From contig NZ_QXJC01000014.1 of the NCBI RefSeq assembly GCF_003570885.1, positions 1 through 64,000 of the forward strand: a DNA stretch of 64,000 nt. The letters are read 5' to 3'. Shown piece after piece: positions 56,854-64,000 of this stretch; within the stretch, counting starts at the first letter, position 1, and every line of letters begins with the position of its first letter. Source of the DNA: Simplicispira hankyongi. Its GTDB lineage: Bacteria; Pseudomonadota; Gammaproteobacteria; Burkholderiales; Burkholderiaceae_C. The notes under the pieces were generated by a model that did no database searches, was not told the origin of the DNA, and saw only the letters and a list, made by a program, of their open reading frames with translations. Made by a program: the position numbers and the translations under genes.

Positions 56854-58854
56854 TCAGTTGTCTTGCCCTGGTCGGTGTTCCTCGCGGCGCGGGCCGCCGT
56901 GCCTATCCCGGTTCTCGGGCGCCTGAGCGCCACGCGGCGCTTGTGCGGGCTGTTGGCGCTGCGCTTGCCTCGGGGCCTGGCGCACTGGCGGCTCCTGTTG
57001 CGCACGCTGGGCCTGGGGTTGGCGCGCCTGCTGCGCACGCTGCTGCAATTGTTGCTCCTGCTGCAAGTGCAGGTGCTGTTGCTGCGCGCGCTGTTCCTGC
57101 TTCTGCGCGGCGCGGGCGGCCTGCTCATTGCGCGCCTCTGAATCGCGCTGGGTGTTCTGCTCACGCTGCCCCTGCTCGGGCCGCCGGGCTGGTGGGCGCC
57201 GCAGGTCTTGCGGCGCTGCGACTTCCGGGCGTGGCGGCGGCATGGCGGCGTTGCGCGGCGGCGGCTCATGGCGTTCGCGCGCAGACGGCGGCACGCTGGC
57301 CTGCGGGGGCCGCACCACCGGCATGGCCGGTGCATGGGAGGCGTTGGGCGCAGCACCGCCGCGCGGCAGTTCGGGGCGCTGCGACGGGCCGGGCAATGCC
57401 TCGCGCCGCAGTGGGGTCTCCGCCCGGCCCCGCGAGAAGGCCGGGTGGGAGACCACACGCCGCTCCACCGCGGCGGCTGGCGGCGTGGGGTGTGCCTGCG
57501 TCAACCGCGAGGCGCCGAACACGCTGCGCGGGTCACGCGTCGGCGTCGGCGGGGCCACCACACGGGCGCGCTCCAGCTCGCGCGCGGCCACTGGACGCAC
57601 GTTGCCGCGCACATGCTGGCCCTGGGAAAACGCGGCCACCGTCACCGCCGTCACGGCGGCCGGCAGGTGCTGGTAGCGGTAGCCGTTGTTGGCATTCGCG
57701 GTGTTGTGCGGCGTGTATTGGCCCCCAAACGGGTTCACGCGGCCCAGATAGGCCCTGCTGGCCCGGTAGCTCGGGCGCCAGGCCTCGCCGGGCGCCAGCG
57801 GAAACCAGGCCACGCCGGGCTGCGTGGCGCCACCCACCGCAATGGCGAAGTTCACACCCCCAGCGCTGCCGCCGACAAAGCCCACCAGCGCGGGCGCGTA
57901 AACCGGGTGGGCCGCGCTGGCACCTGGCACCCAGCACCAGCGCGCACCGCGCTGGGCCCAGCGGCCGTAGTGGAACGGGGCAAAGCCCCAGGGTTCGTCG
58001 TCGATCCAGGTCCAGCCCCAGGGCGCAATCGAGGCCCAGTGGCCGACGCGGTACGGTGCCCAATCCTGCACCGTCACGCGCGGCACCCAGACGGTGCCAT
58101 ACACCGGGTCGCTCTCCCAGTCGCCATAGTTGTCCAGTTGCTGGTAGCCGATCACGTCGCGCGAGACATAACGCGCCGCCAGCGACTGGTCTTCCGCCCG
58201 GTCGCGCGCCTCTGCCCAGCGGTCAAACGGGTCGAGCGCTGGCGCGGTCTGCCCGGCGGCCTGCACCAGGTCCGCGCCCGCGAAGCTGATCTGCTGGCGC
58301 GCGCCCAGGCTGGCCGAGGCGCCGTTGCTGCCGTACACCACGGCGCTGCCCGATCGAACCGTCACGCGCGTGGTGCCGTCGATCGGGTCCACGTCCAGCC
58401 GGTAGTCGCCCGGCTGTGAGGCGGTGAACGCCAGGTTGGGGGTATCGACCTCAAAGCGCTGGCCTGGCGGCAGGCTGCGCAGGCGCACGATCAGGCTGCC
58501 CTGGCTGAGCGCGAGCTGCACGGTCTGGTCGTCCAGCACGGAGAAAGCCAGGCTGGTCTGCCCATCCAGCCGCAGCGCAGTCGAGCCGACGTGCAGCTCG
58601 GAGCGCGCGCCCGTGTCGTTCCAGAGCCGGTCGCCCTGCGTCAACGGCCGGTTCAGCACCGCGCCGGCCCACTGGTCAAACCCGGCGGGCGCAAAGCTCA
58701 CCGGCCCGTCAAAGGCGTTGAGCTGTGCCACGCGCCCCGGCGGGTCGCCAGCGGCTCCCTGCGCGAAGGCGCCCGTGCCGCACAGGGCAGCCAGCAGCAC
58801 GAACAACAGCAGCGCCAGCCGCCCACGGTTTGGAAAAAAAGCCTTGGCATGCAC
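56854..58854 (-). CDS. Exported FecR/DUF6600-like protein with Pro/Gln-rich tail
   Basis: A 666-residue exported protein. The GTG at 58854 begins a signal peptide (GRLALLLFVLLAALCGTGAFA). Residues ~40-220 form a FecR-like beta domain (GDRLWNDTGARSELHVGSTALRLD). Next is a tryptophan- and tyrosine-rich segment (YGDWESDPVYGTVWVPRV; HWASIAPWGWTWIDDEPWGFAPFHYGRW) typical of DUF6600. The last ~200 residues are low-complexity Pro/Gln/Arg (QQQHLHLQQEQQLQQRAQQ), probably disordered. The function is unknown; such proteins are thought to sit in the envelope. Confidence 0.85.
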   Translation of the reverse strand: MHAKAFFPNRGRLALLLFVLLAALCGTGAFAQGAAGDPPGRVAQLNAFDGPVSFAPAGFDQWAGAVLNRPLTQGDRLWNDTGARSELHVGSTALRLDGQTSLAFSVLDDQTVQLALSQGSLIVRLRSLPPGQRFEVDTPNLAFTASQPGDYRLDVDPIDGTTRVTVRSGSAVVYGSNGASASLGARQQISFAGADLVQAAGQTAPALDPFDRWAEARDRAEDQSLAARYVSRDVIGYQQLDNYGDWESDPVYGTVWVPRVTVQDWAPYRVGHWASIAPWGWTWIDDEPWGFAPFHYGRWAQRGARWCWVPGASAAHPVYAPALVGFVGGSAGGVNFAIAVGGATQPGVAWFPLAPGEAWRPSYRASRAYLGRVNPFGGQYTPHNTANANNGYRYQHLPAAVTAVTVAAFSQGQHVRGNVRPVAARELERARVVAPPTPTRDPRSVFGASRLTQAHPTPPAAAVERRVVSHPAFSRGRAETPLRREALPGPSQRPELPRGGAAPNASHAPAMPVVRPPQASVPPSARERHEPPPRNAAMPPPRPEVAAPQDLRRPPARRPEQGQREQNTQRDSEARNEQAARAAQKQEQRAQQQHLHLQQEQQLQQRAQQARQPQAQRAQQEPPVRQAPRQAQRQQPAQAPRGAQAPENRDRHGGPRREEHRPGQDN

Positions 58855-59009
58855 GTTGTGGCCCCCGCAGCCTGTGGTGGGGCGGCTGCGCTCTTTACCC
58901 CACTTCGTAGAACGCGCCAGCGCCGAGAAAGACAACCGGCACAGCCGCCAAACCGTCACCGGATGCAACGCGGTGCGCTGCGCCCAGGCCGCGCAAGCCG
59001 CTCCGCTGT

Positions 59010-59097: not shown

Positions 59098-61116
59098 ATG
59101 GTATCCACCCTTGCCACCCTGCCGCGTGAGGTGCTCAAGCGCAGCGGCCACCGCGCCGCCTTTGATGCGGAAAAGATCCGCTCTGCCTTGCTGCGCGCAG
59201 GCGCCGCCGCGGGCGAATTCGCGGCCGACGAAGCCGCCCTGCTGGCCGCGCAGGTGGGCAAGGTGCTGATCCACCGCTTCCATGGCGAGGCGCCCGGCAT
59301 CGAGCAGATCCAGGACGTGGTCGAGCAGACCCTGATCGCCGCCAACCATCTGGCCACGGCCCGCGCCTACATCGCCTACCGCGACCGCCACGCCACCTTG
59401 CGCGCCGACCACCAGACGCTGGTCAACGTGGAAAGCTCCATCAACGAATACCTCACCCGCGCCGACTGGCGCGTCAACGCCAACGCCAACCAGGGCTATT
59501 CGCTGGGCGGCCTCATCCTCAACGTGGCGGGCAAGGTCACGGCCAATTACTGGCTGTCGCACGTCTACACGCCAGAAATTGGCGAGGCGCACCGCAATGG
59601 CGACATCCACATCCACGACCTCGACATGCTCAGCGGCTACTGCGCGGGCTGGTCGCTGCGCACGCTGCTCAACGAAGGGCTCAATGGCGTTCCCGGCAAG
59701 GTCGAAGCGGGCCCGCCCAAACACATGTCGTCAGCCGTGGGGCAGATCGTGAACTTTTTGGGCACGCTGCAGAACGAATGGGCCGGTGCCCAGGCGTTCT
59801 CGTCGTTCGACACCTACATGGCGCCCTATGTGCGGATCGATGCCATGGATTACGCCGCCGTGCGCCAGTGCATCCAGGAGCTGGTCTACAACCTCAACGT
59901 GCCATCGCGCTGGGGCACGCAAACGCCGTTCACCAACCTCACCTTCGACTGGATCTGCCCCGACGACCTGCGCGAGCAGGTGCCGGTGATTGCGGGCAAG
60001 GAGATGCCGTTCAGCTACGGCGAGCTGCAGGCCGAGATGGACCTCATCAACCGCGCCTACATCGACGTCATGACCACGGGCGATGCCAAGGGCCGCGTGT
60101 TCACCTTTCCCATCCCCACCTACAACATCACCAAAGACTTCCCGTGGGAGAGCGAGAACGCGCAATTGCTGTTCGAGATGACGGCCAAGTACGGCCTGCC
60201 GTACTTCCAGAACTTCATCAACTCCGAGCTGGAGCCGAACATGGTGCGCTCCATGTGCTGCCGCCTGCAGCTGGACCTGCGCGAGCTCTTGAAGCGCGGC
60301 AACGGCCTGTTTGGCAGCGCCGAGCAGACCGGCAGCCTGGGTGTGGTGACCATCAACTGCGCGCGGCTGGGCTATCTGCACGCAGGCGACGAGACGGCAC
60401 TGCTGGCCGCGCTCGACCGCCTGCTCGAATTGGGCAAGCAAAGCCTGGAGACCAAGCGCAAACTGATCCAGCGGCTCATGGACCAGGGCCTGTTCCCCTA
60501 CACCAAGCGCTACCTCGGTACGCTGCGCAACCACTTCAGCACGCTGGGCGTGAACGGCATCAACGAAATGGTGCGCAACTTTACGGGCGATGCGCACGAC
60601 ATCACCAGCGAGCGCGGCCACCAGCTCGCCGTGCGCCTGCTTGACCATGTGCGCGAACGCATGACCGCTTTTCAGGAAGCAACCGGCCACCTCTACAACC
60701 TGGAGGCCACGCCCGCCGAAGGCACCACCTACCGCTTCGCCAAGGAGGACAAAAAGCGCTGGCCCGCCATCGTGCAGGCAGGCACGGCGGACAAGCCGTA
60801 CTACACCAACTCCTCGCAGTTGCCCGTGGGCTGGACGGACGACCCCTTCGAGGCCCTGACGCGCCAGGAGGTGCTGCAGAGCAAATACACCGGCGGCACC
60901 GTGCTGCACCTGTACATGGGCGAGCGGCTGTCGAGCGGCGCCGCCTGCCGCGACCTGGTCAAACGCTCGCTCACGCGCTTTCGCCTGCCCTACATCACCA
61001 TCACGCCCACGTTCTCGATCTGCCCCACGCACGGCTACCTGGCGGGCGAGCACAAGTTCTGCCCCACCTGCGACGAAGAGCGCCTGCAGGCCAAGCGCGC
61101 CGCATTGGCGGCGTGA
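59098..61116 (+). CDS. nrdD: Anaerobic ribonucleoside-triphosphate reductase, catalytic chain without glycyl radical loop
   Basis: A 672-residue class III reductase that turns ribonucleotides into deoxyribonucleotides without oxygen. An N-terminal ATP cone (KRSGHRAAFDAEKIRSALLRAG) gives allosteric control. Active-site parts include GYSLGGLILNVAGKVTANYW, TPFTNLTFDW and MVRSMCCRLQLDLREL. The zinc region near the end reads SICPTHGYLAGEHKFCPTCDEE (residues 640-661), but the protein stops at residue 672. The C-terminal glycine loop (RVxGY) that must follow is absent; it is found in the separate 62-residue gene downstream. No frameshift joins them: the frames differ, 172 bp lie between, and a repeat sits in the gap. 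Confidence 0.93.
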   Translation: MVSTLATLPREVLKRSGHRAAFDAEKIRSALLRAGAAAGEFAADEAALLAAQVGKVLIHRFHGEAPGIEQIQDVVEQTLIAANHLATARAYIAYRDRHATLRADHQTLVNVESSINEYLTRADWRVNANANQGYSLGGLILNVAGKVTANYWLSHVYTPEIGEAHRNGDIHIHDLDMLSGYCAGWSLRTLLNEGLNGVPGKVEAGPPKHMSSAVGQIVNFLGTLQNEWAGAQAFSSFDTYMAPYVRIDAMDYAAVRQCIQELVYNLNVPSRWGTQTPFTNLTFDWICPDDLREQVPVIAGKEMPFSYGELQAEMDLINRAYIDVMTTGDAKGRVFTFPIPTYNITKDFPWESENAQLLFEMTAKYGLPYFQNFINSELEPNMVRSMCCRLQLDLRELLKRGNGLFGSAEQTGSLGVVTINCARLGYLHAGDETALLAALDRLLELGKQSLETKRKLIQRLMDQGLFPYTKRYLGTLRNHFSTLGVNGINEMVRNFTGDAHDITSERGHQLAVRLLDHVRERMTAFQEATGHLYNLEATPAEGTTYRFAKEDKKRWPAIVQAGTADKPYYTNSSQLPVGWTDDPFEALTRQEVLQSKYTGGTVLHLYMGERLSSGAACRDLVKRSLTRFRLPYITITPTFSICPTHGYLAGEHKFCPTCDEERLQAKRAALAA

Positions 61117-61141
61117 CACGACCCCATCAAAAAATATGAGT

Positions 61142-61194
61142 CAAATTGGCCTCTAGCGCTTATCCATCAAGCGCAAGCAGCTATTGATTCAATA
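61142..61194. repeat. Dispersed palindromic repeat (copy 9) inside the nrd locus
   Basis: TCAAATTGGCCTCTAGCGCT and AAGCGCAAGCAGCTATTGAT lie in the 172-bp gap between nrdD and the glycyl-radical gene. It could form a hairpin in the mRNA between the two parts. Confidence 0.8.
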
Positions 61195-61288
61195 GTAAAT
61201 CAACGGTGAGGCCACACCCCTCCGTTGCCCCCGGGCGGCGCAGCACACGCTGCGGCATGCCCCCTTTTCACCCTGAAGGAGAACATCC

Positions 61289-61477
61289 ATGAGCCACTAT
61301 TCCACCACCGAACACCAGGCCCTGTCCGACGTGCAACTGAGCGACGCCGAGCGCCAGCCCTGCGAAGTCTGGACCCGCGTGATGGGTTACCACCGCCCGG
61401 TCGCCAGCTTCAATATCGGCAAGCAGGGCGAGCACCACGAGCGCCAATTTTTTGCCGAAACCCCCAGTGGCCGTTGA
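61289..61477 (+). CDS. nrdD: Stand-alone glycyl radical domain of anaerobic ribonucleotide reductase
   Basis: A 62-residue protein. Residues ~23-56 (QPCEVWTRVMGYHRPVASFN, then IGKQGEHHERQFF) match the C-terminal end of class III NrdD, with the predicted radical glycine as G33 in RVMGY. This is exactly the part missing from the 672-residue NrdD just upstream. AAGGAGA lies at ideal spacing before the ATG, so it is translated on its own. It overlaps the start of nrdG. It would bind NrdD and carry the radical in trans, as YfiD does for pyruvate formate-lyase. Short proteins of this NRDD type exist in databases as I remember, but I do not know of experimental work. Confidence 0.85.
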   Translation: MSHYSTTEHQALSDVQLSDAERQPCEVWTRVMGYHRPVASFNIGKQGEHHERQFFAETPSGR

Positions 61478-62219
61478 CCTGCAAAGCCGCCCTCCGCACC
61501 GGCCCGTGCCGGTGCCCGTGGTGACTGCGCCCGCCGCACACGCCGATGCTGCGTTGCTGCGCATCGGCGGCATCACGCCGCTCACCAGCATCGACTTCCC
61601 CGGCCGCCTGGCCGCCGTGCTGTACTGCCAGGGCTGCCCCTGGCGCTGCGGCTACTGCCACAACCCCGAGCTGCTGTGCGCCACCACCCCCGCCGCCGTG
61701 CCCTGGCCCGAGGTGCTGGCGTTTCTCAAAAGCCGCCAGGGCCTGCTCGACGGCGTCGTCTTCTCCGGTGGCGAACCCACGCTGCAAGCCTCCTTGCCCG
61801 CCGCGCTGGCCGAGGTGCGCGCCTTGGGCCTTCAAACCGCGCTGCACACCGGCGGCATGTACCCCGAGCGCCTGCAAGCGCTGCTGCCCCTGCTCGACTG
61901 GGTGGGCCTGGACATCAAAGGCCCCCTGCACGCCTACGACGCCATCACGCGCACCCCCGGCAGCGGCGCCAAAGCCTTTGAATCGTTGCAACGCCTGCTC
62001 GCCAGCGGCGTGCCCTATGAATGCCGCACCACCTGGCACGCGGGCCTGTTCAGTGTGGACGACCTGTTCGCCCTGGCCGACACGCTGGCCGATGCAGGCG
62101 TGGCCCACTGGGCGCTTCAGGAATGCCGCGCGCCGGGCGCTTCTGCCTGGGCCTTGACGGCTGGGCAGGTGGAGCGGCTGGGGGCGCGGTTTGCGGGGTT
62201 GGTGGTACGGCGGGGGTGA
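61452..62219 (+). CDS. nrdG: Anaerobic ribonucleotide reductase activating protein, radical SAM
   Basis: A 255-residue radical SAM protein that generates the glycyl radical on its partner. The cluster motif is YCQGCPWRCGYCHNPELL (CxxxCxxC). The SAM-binding glycines are in VVFSGGEPTL, followed by LHTGGMYPERL and VGLDIKGPLHAYD. The length matches the longer activase type rather than the ~155-residue E. coli NrdG. The start is uncertain: TTG at 61452, overlapping the radical-domain gene by 26 bp, or GTGs a little further in. The overlap implies coupled expression of activator and substrate loop. Confidence 0.88.
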   Translation: MPKPPVAVDLQSRPPHRPVPVPVVTAPAAHADAALLRIGGITPLTSIDFPGRLAAVLYCQGCPWRCGYCHNPELLCATTPAAVPWPEVLAFLKSRQGLLDGVVFSGGEPTLQASLPAALAEVRALGLQTALHTGGMYPERLQALLPLLDWVGLDIKGPLHAYDAITRTPGSGAKAFESLQRLLASGVPYECRTTWHAGLFSVDDLFALADTLADAGVAHWALQECRAPGASAWALTAGQVERLGARFAGLVVRRG

Positions 62220-62457
62220 GAGGCAGGTCACCGGTAACTGCCCTTGGGCAAGCGAGTGCGAGCGACTGTTCAAGGCGGGAAGTCGACAGTCACCAAAGAC
62301 GACTCTTTGCTTCCTTGGCACTCAGTAGGTTGGTCAAGATTCGATCGGAATCAACGGGCAGCGGCCTAAATGGATGCGATATAAGTCTCTATCTGCGACG
62401 CACGAGCTCTCAGACATTCGGCTAAACGTCGCGCAAAAAACCAGGAGAGGTTACGCC

Positions 62458-64000
62458 GTGATTCATCAGTTGGACATTGCGCATTTCGGAAGTTTCGATG
62501 GATTTCAGTGGAAAAGCTCGATTAGGGACACGTCCGGAAACAACGTTCAGAGCTTCAAGATGCTCAACATCATCTACGGCCGAAACTACTCCGGGAAAAC
62601 TACGCTTTCCAGGGTATTCAGGAGTCTTGAGAAAGGTGAGATCCCGTGGCGCTACGAGGACGCACGCTTCGTGGTGCGAGGCGATAAGGGGGATCTGACT
62701 CATCAGCAGATTGCTGGACACGGCTACGACATCCGCGTCTACAACAGAGATTTCGTGGTGGAGAACCTGAGCTTCCTCACCGACCAGCGCGCCGGGAGCA
62801 TACAAACCTTTGCGATTGTCGGCAGCGAGAACAACGCCTTGGCAGAACGTATCGCAGCGCTGTTTACCAGCCTGGGTAGTGTTGAGGAGAAGCGTGGCGC
62901 GCGCTACGACGCGGCGCAGGCCTCGGAAAAGCACTTCAAAACAAGCAAGCGGGCCAAGGACGCTAGTGATGAGCTCGATGAACTTTTGCGTCGACAGGCT
63001 AACGATGTCATCAAAAAGGATCGTGCGTTCGGCCATGTGGGATACAACATCGACAGCATTAAGGCAGACATTGCATTCGTCACGGGTAACAAGCTCGAAG
63101 TATTGACTGAGGCCGAAAGGTCTAGTTACGTCGCGCTGCTGAAGGAGGATGCACTGCCAGAGATACGCGCTACCGCGTCCTTCAGGTCAAAGCTTGATGC
63201 ACTATTCGACGAGGCAACGCCGCTGATCGGCACCGCCATAGAGCCCACCAAACCGCTACAGGATTTACTGGACGATGCCGCGTTGCAATCTTGGGCGCGC
63301 GAGGGTATCGGACACCACAAGGGAAAGCGCGAAGACTGCGCCTTTTGTCGGCAGCAGCTTCCCGCCAACCTCTGGCAGACGTTGGCAAATCATTTCAACC
63401 AGGCCTCTGAGACGCTCGGAGCGGCGATCGATGCCTGCTCTGAGAAGATCCGTGTTGAGATACAGAGCGTGGCTTGGATGCCAGTGCTTGAATCGGGTCA
63501 GTTCTACGCATCCGAGCGACCTGCTTTTGAGGCGGCTAAGTCCGATCTCGTGAAATCCATCGAGTCCTACAAAACCGATCTAAAGAAGCTTGCGGACGCG
63601 TTGGCGAGCCGACGCGCGTCGCTGTTTCGAGCCGGAAGGCTTCCGCTGCGAGAGTTTGATGAAGCAGCGGCAGAGGCTGCGACACACTCGTTCAACTCAG
63701 TTGTGGCAGCGAACAACGGCCGCTCTACGACGCTGAATAAGGACAAGGACGCAGCACGGTTGGCGCTTCGGCGCAGCAAGGTCGCTGAGTTCCTTGCGAC
63801 CCTTGACCTTCCTGGCAAAGAAGCGCACATCCTTCAGCTTCGAGAGAAGTGCGCCGACGCCAAGACGATAGCGGATACAACGCGCCAAGCTCAGCATTCC
63901 ATCGAGCAGGAGATCAAGCAGCTTGAAGCGCAGCAGAAAGACGAGCGCAAAGGCGCAGAGCGTGTCAATGCGCTGCTGAACCACTATTTTGGCCATGGCG
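62458..64000 (+). CDS. AAA_13 family ATPase, RloC-like, with zinc-hook motif (partial)
   Basis: The frame is open from the GTG at 62458 (AGGAGAGG upstream) to the window end, 514 codons so far. The N-terminus has an ABC-type P-loop (LNIIYGRNYSGKTTLSRVFRSLEKG) and the IRVYNRDFVVENL stretch of AAA_13 proteins. A long coiled-coil part follows with CAFC at residues 294-297, the CxxC pattern of a Rad50/RloC zinc hook. The last residues (ERVNALLNHYFGHG) match the start of the returning ATPase half. RloC is an anticodon nuclease with this layout; the nuclease part would be outside the window. GC content and codon use are visibly lower than in neighbours, a sign of transfer. The gap 62220-62457 shows no gene. 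Confidence 0.8.
   Translation, partial: MIHQLDIAHFGSFDGFQWKSSIRDTSGNNVQSFKMLNIIYGRNYSGKTTLSRVFRSLEKGEIPWRYEDARFVVRGDKGDLTHQQIAGHGYDIRVYNRDFVVENLSFLTDQRAGSIQTFAIVGSENNALAERIAALFTSLGSVEEKRGARYDAAQASEKHFKTSKRAKDASDELDELLRRQANDVIKKDRAFGHVGYNIDSIKADIAFVTGNKLEVLTEAERSSYVALLKEDALPEIRATASFRSKLDALFDEATPLIGTAIEPTKPLQDLLDDAALQSWAREGIGHHKGKREDCAFCRQQLPANLWQTLANHFNQASETLGAAIDACSEKIRVEIQSVAWMPVLESGQFYASERPAFEAAKSDLVKSIESYKTDLKKLADALASRRASLFRAGRLPLREFDEAAAEAATHSFNSVVAANNGRSTTLNKDKDAARLALRRSKVAEFLATLDLPGKEAHILQLREKCADAKTIADTTRQAQHSIEQEIKQLEAQQKDERKGAERVNALLNHYFGHG

Follow-up and report, generated by a model that had tools for sequence, protein, structure and literature searches.

How can an anaerobic ribonucleotide reductase work when its catalytic chain ends before the loop that ought to hold its radical? 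Class III ribonucleotide reductases (RNRs) make DNA precursors without oxygen and store their radical on a glycine. The question is raised by three successive genes, nrdD, a short unnamed gene and nrdG, on contig NZ_QXJC01000014.1 of Simplicispira hankyongi (assembly GCF_003570885.1), of which the first 64,000 nucleotides, hereafter the window, were analysed. We conclude that these genes very probably encode a two-chain class III RNR together with its activase, and the split-enzyme interpretation offered in a preliminary description of the locus, made from the DNA letters alone, is supported. What is new here is a two-chain variant of class III RNR; phage-borne radical subunits are its boldest extension.

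One family profile divided between two genes

The large chain is encoded by nrdD (59098..61116, + strand), whose 672-residue product has an ATP-cone at residues 11-99 (Pfam E 6.4e-20), a catalytic barrel and a zinc site, and is without a glycyl-radical loop. Residues 129-661 correspond to positions 2-530 of the Pfam NRDD model PF13597 (E 2.6e-174), and the top NCBIfam model is NF006126 (1121.6 bits). The finger loop reads SMCCR (60250..60264, + strand, residues 385-389), by sequence a double-cysteine loop of the MCCR type, and with the NRDD match it gives NrdD the barrel and finger-loop cysteine of a class III RNR. The MCCR class of finger loops is described in PMC9669993, according to which enzymes of this type may use formate or thioredoxin. 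Near the C-terminus lies the motif CPTHGYLAGEHKFCPTC (C..H...C..C; 61021..61071, + strand, residues 642-658), the putative zinc site expected of the class; for T. maritima NrdD, the available part of PMC4493059 gives the zinc motif as CxxxHx6CxxC. The chain ends 14 residues past this site, with ...CPTHGYLAGEHKFCPTCDEERLQAKRAALAA*, and contains no RVxGY loop. The preliminary description had placed the end of the 672-residue chain just past the zinc site and before any loop, and its coordinates, length and motif hold. Because the large chain matches the NRDD model of 562 positions only as far as position 530, we do not class it alone as a complete class III RNR.

The remaining positions are found in a second gene. 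A frame of 62 codons (61289..61477, + strand; 7.2 kDa) starts 172 bp past nrdD, in the +1 frame relative to it, with a Shine-Dalgarno sequence AAGGAG (61276..61281, + strand) upstream of its ATG. It contains CEVWTRVMGYHRP, the loop that the large chain lacks, in which Gly33 (codon 61385..61387, + strand) is, by sequence, the expected glycyl-radical residue. Residues 22-55 match PF13597 positions 531-562 (E 1.8e-7), and this is the only Pfam match of the small protein at E values up to 1. The NRDD model is divided between the two proteins, 2-530 and 531-562, with neither overlap nor gap. Gly33 is invariant in 25 of 25 and in 38 of 38 aligned rows, which were themselves gathered by the same motif. 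In 13 loci of the genus, the ratio of nonsynonymous to synonymous polymorphism (pN/pS) of this frame is 0.034 (35 conserved codons, 78 pairs), against 4.4 and 5.0 for the same stretch in the two other frames; across 56 loci the small frame has a pN/pS of 0.211. The complementary NRDD matches and the low pN/pS relative to the other frames argue that the small frame is not a chance open reading frame.

The third gene, nrdG (61452..62219, + strand), encodes a radical SAM activase of the NrdG2 type with the motif CQGCPWRCGYC (TIGR02495, 191.2 bits, cut-off 131.15). Its putative TTG start is that of the longest open reading, and from there it overlaps the 3' end of the small gene (61452-61477). Core and glycyl-loop positions are both present in the pair of chains, next to an NrdG activase, which is the complement of a class III RNR. 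These results bear out what had been read from the letters, namely a 62-residue frame 172 bp downstream with its own ribosome site, a glycine 33 within the missing loop and an overlap with nrdG, and the profile search proposed at the time found both the ATP-cone and NRDD, the latter in exactly complementary halves.

The genome (3.7 Mb, 19 contigs, 100% complete) has these two halves as its only NRDD matches over the cut-off, the third match having an E value of 2.24, and no match to PF01228, the glycyl domain of the pyruvate formate-lyase (PFL) type, at E values up to 10. A second complete nrdD, which had been named as a possible sign that this locus is decayed, is absent, and the small protein, proposed as the only source of the radical, is the only recognised one. 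Two further RNR large subunits are encoded in the genome, as open frames of 991 and 847 residues, so class III reduction would matter mainly without oxygen. The sequences show two halves that are present as separate genes, are conserved as a pair and together fill one family profile; that they form a two-chain complex, with the radical on Gly33 and radical transfer between the chains, is what this arrangement suggests.

The same division in relatives

NRDD is matched in 15 of 26 genomes of the genus, and 14 of these 15 have a core and a separate small part. In the family sample, 35 of 200 genomes match and 33 of the 35 are split, each of the 33 with a small partner. The two exceptions are a fragment only (G028) and a one-chain NrdD (G138), the zinc site of which we take to be E. 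coli-like. The order sample has 113 matching genomes among 349; by hand count among the matches listed, 88 of the 113 are split (four of them reported as a single match with an internal stop), and the remainder, again among the matches listed, consists of 12 one-chain genomes, 11 with a second NrdD type only, one with the small gene only and one with a truncated core. In the class sample 30 of 276 genomes match, and we count 21 of the 30 as split. Two 0.9-Mb genomes of the phylum are split as well (L177 in G994 and L176 in G979); in G994 a single frame, interrupted by two TAA codons, carries the NRDD match across both halves.

The loci themselves were compared with a parsing script, which was given 73 nrdD loci and parsed 70; the three left out, L016, L017 and L058, do contain nrdD but did not pass its frame test. 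The parsed loci comprise 56 split, 13 one-chain and one without a nearby small gene. In all 56 split loci the cut falls between the zinc site and the glycyl loop. The gap between nrdD and the small gene runs from -4 to 290 bp (at most 35 bp in 19 of the 56), the relative frames 0, +1 and +2 occur 16, 19 and 21 times, and nrdD stops at TGA in 45 loci, TAA in 7 and TAG in 4. In 55 of the 56, the start assigned to the small gene follows a Shine-Dalgarno motif of at least 4 nt; among several possible ATGs the script took the one with the best such motif. A sequencing error, which had been raised as a possible cause of the split, is excluded by its recurrence in many genomes with varied gaps and in all three relative frames.

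The split is widespread. A scan of genome_contigs found at least 581 loci; the best 80 were kept, which makes the sample one selected for resemblance to the small protein. The script read 72 of these best 80 as split, eight as without a recognised zinc region and none as one-chain; in five of the eight (L189, L203, L242, L247, L254), tblastn with the window NrdD found nrdD, or its end, immediately upstream, which brings a separate-frame nrdD, or its end, beside the small gene to 77 of the best 80. Named sources of these loci include Acidovorax soli, Thauera linaloolentis, Thiobacillus thioparus, Rhodopseudomonas faecalis, Acidithiobacillus ferruginosus and Ectothiorhodospira lacustris, and metagenome-assembled genomes (MAGs) labelled Geobacteraceae, Elusimicrobiota, Verrucomicrobiota and Holosporales, labels that may be wrong. 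The survey of relatives and other phyla for which the preliminary description had called thus found the split widely.

Plasmids carry it too. Of 28 plasmid records matched by tblastn, 12 were inspected. Cupriavidus necator pHG1 and plasmids of Sulfuricurvum kujiense and Shinella have three annotated genes, a full-length nrdD, the small gene and nrdG, and the split is also seen in plasmid DNA of Cereibacter, C. metallidurans and Paracoccus, the match to the window NrdD starting only at residues 107-109 in the last two. The plasmid NrdDs of Acidiphilium, Actinomyces and Acidithiobacillus ferrooxidans are one-chain. Six plasmid records annotate the small gene as 'nrdD, anaerobic ribonucleoside-triphosphate reductase', and in the pHG1, Sulfuricurvum and Shinella records both pieces are named 'reductase', which hides the split. 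The loci of these three plasmids are close to nitric-oxide reductase, napA and nosL genes and are denitrification settings.

Among 80 NrdD rows, ten are one-chain relatives of MCCR type, so the same parts also occur as a single chain. The tree script was given 91 loci, 11 of which were without a usable NrdD frame. The resulting NrdD core tree requires four changes between split and one-chain states (80 rows), or three when six long, odd or duplicate rows are omitted (74 rows). The approximately unbiased (AU) test does not reject a single clade of one-chain rows (p 0.49) and the root of the tree is unplaced, so we make no claim about the number of splits or re-fusions.

The small gene as a gene of its own

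In several genomes the two halves are apart. In L164 (G230) nrdD is 8.4 kb away from the pair of small gene and nrdG, and the intervening genes have the opposite orientation; in L163 (G286) a 622-residue radical-SAM gene separates nrdD from the small gene by about 2 kb; and in G278 nrdD is on contig 144, while the small gene is on contig 41 beside what looks by eye like an nrdG-like frame. Four genomes (G468, G561, G537, G796) have additional small genes besides the one adjacent to nrdD.

Some of the copies apart from nrdD have other neighbours. In L162 (G561, same order) and L251 (a Sutterella MAG) the small gene is seen, by eye, beside an amidohydrolase-like frame and away from nrdD. The second copy in G537 has, also by eye, a prophage-like setting with lysozyme-like and Rz-like frames adjacent. 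On Allochromatium vinosum pALVIN01 a lone small gene (L093 3992-4201) lies 44 bp past a gene for a CHAP-domain protein, with no nrdD or nrdG in the plasmid stretch around it, and is possibly phage-derived.

Among the other explanations of the locus, the one that survives best is that the small protein carries no radical and instead regulates NrdG or NrdD, for instance by competing for activation. Its gene does overlap nrdG in the window, and in L164 it has stayed beside nrdG though nrdD is some 8 kb off. However, the glycyl loop is missing from the large chain, no other source of one was found in the genome and the glycyl motif is invariant in the aligned rows, all of which makes a purely regulatory role very improbable.

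Slightly less probable still is that the cell makes a single chain from the two frames, by frameshift, read-through, bypass or an intron, and the enzyme is an ordinary one. This would suit L067-L070, where just one stop codon separates the in-phase frames, but it sits badly with the range of gaps and relative frames across the 56 split loci, with the Shine-Dalgarno motif before nearly every chosen small start, and with the intervening genes or separate contigs of L163, L164 and G278. Nor does the locus fit an nrdD interrupted by an intron or intein, with sequence that would rejoin the halves as RNA or protein: 19 of the 56 gaps are 35 bp or shorter, the small genes have starts of their own and unlinked halves occur (Rfam was not searched).

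Predicted structure and proposed mechanism

AlphaFold2 was run on the read-through chain of L005, from the same genus (769 residues, 46 alignment rows). The joined chain is predicted with a mean predicted local distance difference test (pLDDT) of 84.5 and a predicted template modelling (pTM) score of 0.77. Its glycyl-loop part, residues 731 onward, has block-mean pLDDT values of 82-93, and strands 737-742 and 745-748 flank G744, so that in the model a hairpin forms with the glycine at its tip; confidence is poor in the linker and the finger loop. The first 36 Foldseek matches are class III RNRs. The small protein of the window modelled by itself (38 rows) has a mean pLDDT of 58.6 and no strands, and a PDB sequence search with it gave weak unrelated matches only. 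The models fit a small chain that folds on docking, and do not prove it; nothing in them contradicts the docking, a failure of which the preliminary description had named as a ground for refutation.

In the two-chain enzyme that we propose, the large chain would supply the ATP-cone, the barrel with its finger-loop cysteines and the zinc site, and the 62-residue chain would supply the glycyl-radical loop, folding only on docking beside the zinc site. Gly33, at the hairpin tip, would enter the barrel. NrdG would abstract a hydrogen from Gly33, most likely with the small chain docked on NrdD, and the radical would then pass to a finger-loop cysteine, as in one-chain NrdD.

Several observations weigh against this proposal. 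Two genomes have a truncated core for which no partner was found, G020 in the genus (78% complete) and G407 in the order sample. Elsewhere it is the core that fails: in L198 (3053-3319) nrdD is present as short remnants only (residues 3-38 and 472-504), with the small gene still open, and L200 and L251 have no nrdD match by tblastn beside the small gene. On the Bradyrhizobium plasmid, where the small gene (open) and nrdG are kept, a transposase gene lies within nrdD (L091 570-3921), between matches to residues 3-306 and 305-663; on the Thiothrix plasmid nrdD (L097 2251-3962) matches in two frames and the small gene is open. In the structural model, finger-loop residues 393-408 have pLDDT values below 50, and the docking is not an independent prediction, because the chains were joined through the stop codon and one-chain relatives are in the alignment. 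Least probable of all the alternatives is that the locus is decaying, the split being a mutation and class III reduction lost, for although this genome has two other RNR large subunits and nrdD itself is broken in L198 and on the Bradyrhizobium and Thiothrix plasmids, the small gene has a pN/pS of 0.034, the same split recurs in loci labelled as several phyla, nrdG scores over its curated cut-off, and the pHG1 locus, which is split, is reported in the available part of PMC2864759 to be needed for complete denitrification.

Viral copies

The small gene is also found in viral sequence, a finding that, like the breadth of the split and the unlinked small genes, goes beyond the preliminary description. 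A scan gave 193 IMG/VR contigs, of which the best 80 were kept (L265-L344), and all of these best 80 have the glycyl motif, 65 as recognised by script and 15 as MGYYRP, MGYFRP, MGYCRP or RCMGY variants. Among 50 of these records searched whole, 49 have no NRDD match to the NrdD core and only the small domain, though records may be fragments; in one of the 49 the small domain is just under the cut-off and another has an extra match at E 0.019. Only G1095 has a core, which there is in two pieces, along with the small gene. Ten neighbour proteins from six viral loci were scanned against PHROGs and nine matched a family, with a tail, lysis or virion match in all six loci (endolysin, Rz-like spanin, baseplate wedge, tape measure and amidase among them). 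When 60 distinct viral small sequences were compared with 172 bacterial ones, the best identities were 66-89% over up to 45 residues. The small protein of the window matches phrog_4132, annotated as of unknown function, at E 3.1e-11. INPHARED phages gave no match to the window small protein at 1e-5; with one viral query two records appeared at 0.01, one of them again with a second query. Because the INPHARED matches are nil or weak, the case for phage copies rests on the IMG/VR contigs.

Relation to known systems

One-chain NrdD, as in E. coli, phage T4 and T. maritima, shares with the window enzyme its fold, Pfam family, zinc site, finger-loop cysteines and NrdG activase, but its glycyl-radical loop forms the C-terminal end of the single chain, whereas the window has a separate gene for it. 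In having a small stand-alone glycyl-radical protein, the locus resembles YfiD/GrcA of bacteria and Y06I of phage T4, which act in trans with a larger enzyme; in the available part of PMC8683613 these two are the only validated spare parts, both for PFL, with others considered possible. That the window-type protein stands alone is evident from its gene structure, and by analogy it may act in trans as they do. It differs in family, YfiD/GrcA belonging to PF01228/IPR011140 and the window protein matching PF13597 only, and in the place of the loop: YfiD repairs PFL that oxygen has cleaved, whereas here the large chain never has the loop and the small chain would be obligatory. The split class II RNR NrdJa/NrdJb, for which the accessible text of PMC9669993 points to the P. 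aeruginosa enzyme in its references, likewise has its large subunit in two chains with the C-terminal part separate, but that part bears an IscU-like domain and a zinc-finger domain and not the radical, which is the role proposed for the small chain here. Divided nrdD genes are also described in phages, as introns, homing endonucleases and the phiAS4 fragments (PMC3653736, in part); those are interruptions in single phages, whereas here the cut, between zinc site and glycyl loop, recurs across bacteria. In the portions of open-licence papers available to us, we found no account of an NrdD divided so that the glycyl-radical part has its own gene.

The computed mass of pHG1 NrdD (676 residues) is 76.19 kDa, and Siedow et al. 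reportedly gave, in a 1999 abstract on the pHG1 enzyme, an NrdD of 76.2 kDa; the NrdG mass reportedly given there matches neither computed value, 25.4 or 27.1 kDa. NrdDG is cited as essential for complete denitrification in the C. necator strain bearing pHG1, and Rmet_5137 and Rmet_5139 are named NrdD and NrdG, with the locus tag between them uncommented, in the part of PMC2864759 available; that tag is presumably the small gene. If the radical glycine is on a separate 7-kDa protein, work with the long chain only would be work with an enzyme unable to hold its radical.

A replaceable radical subunit would likely bring a benefit where oxygen is met, because the glycyl radical is where oxygen breaks the chain of class III enzymes (PMC3019208 and PMC2795772, in the parts available): a 7-kDa cartridge would be lost and the 75-kDa chain could be recharged. 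We think it somewhat more probable than its contrary that the cartridge is also exchanged, hosts keeping a radical-free core and reloading small subunits, paralogues serving as spares, and many phages carrying the cartridge alone so that the host enzyme can work in anaerobic DNA synthesis. If so, PFL would no longer be the only glycyl-radical enzyme known to have spare parts, and a phage auxiliary metabolic gene would lie among proteins annotated as of unknown function (phrog_4132), giving such small phage proteins a testable role. A natural two-part system would also make radical loading, docking and oxygen damage separable for study.

Neighbourhood of the locus

The gap between nrdD and the small gene contains one copy of a dispersed palindromic repeat, TCTAGCGCTTATNNATNAAGCGC (61152..61174, + strand), which has 123 copies in the genome at up to two mismatches; a reversed control pattern has none. 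A simple pattern search found no FNR-type box in the window. Upstream of nrdD, 56854-58968 on the - strand holds a 704-residue frame in which a DUF6600 domain is accompanied by a long tail of low complexity. Downstream of nrdG, 62374-64000 holds the start of an AAA_13 (PF13166) ATPase (E 1.4e-77), cut by the window end.

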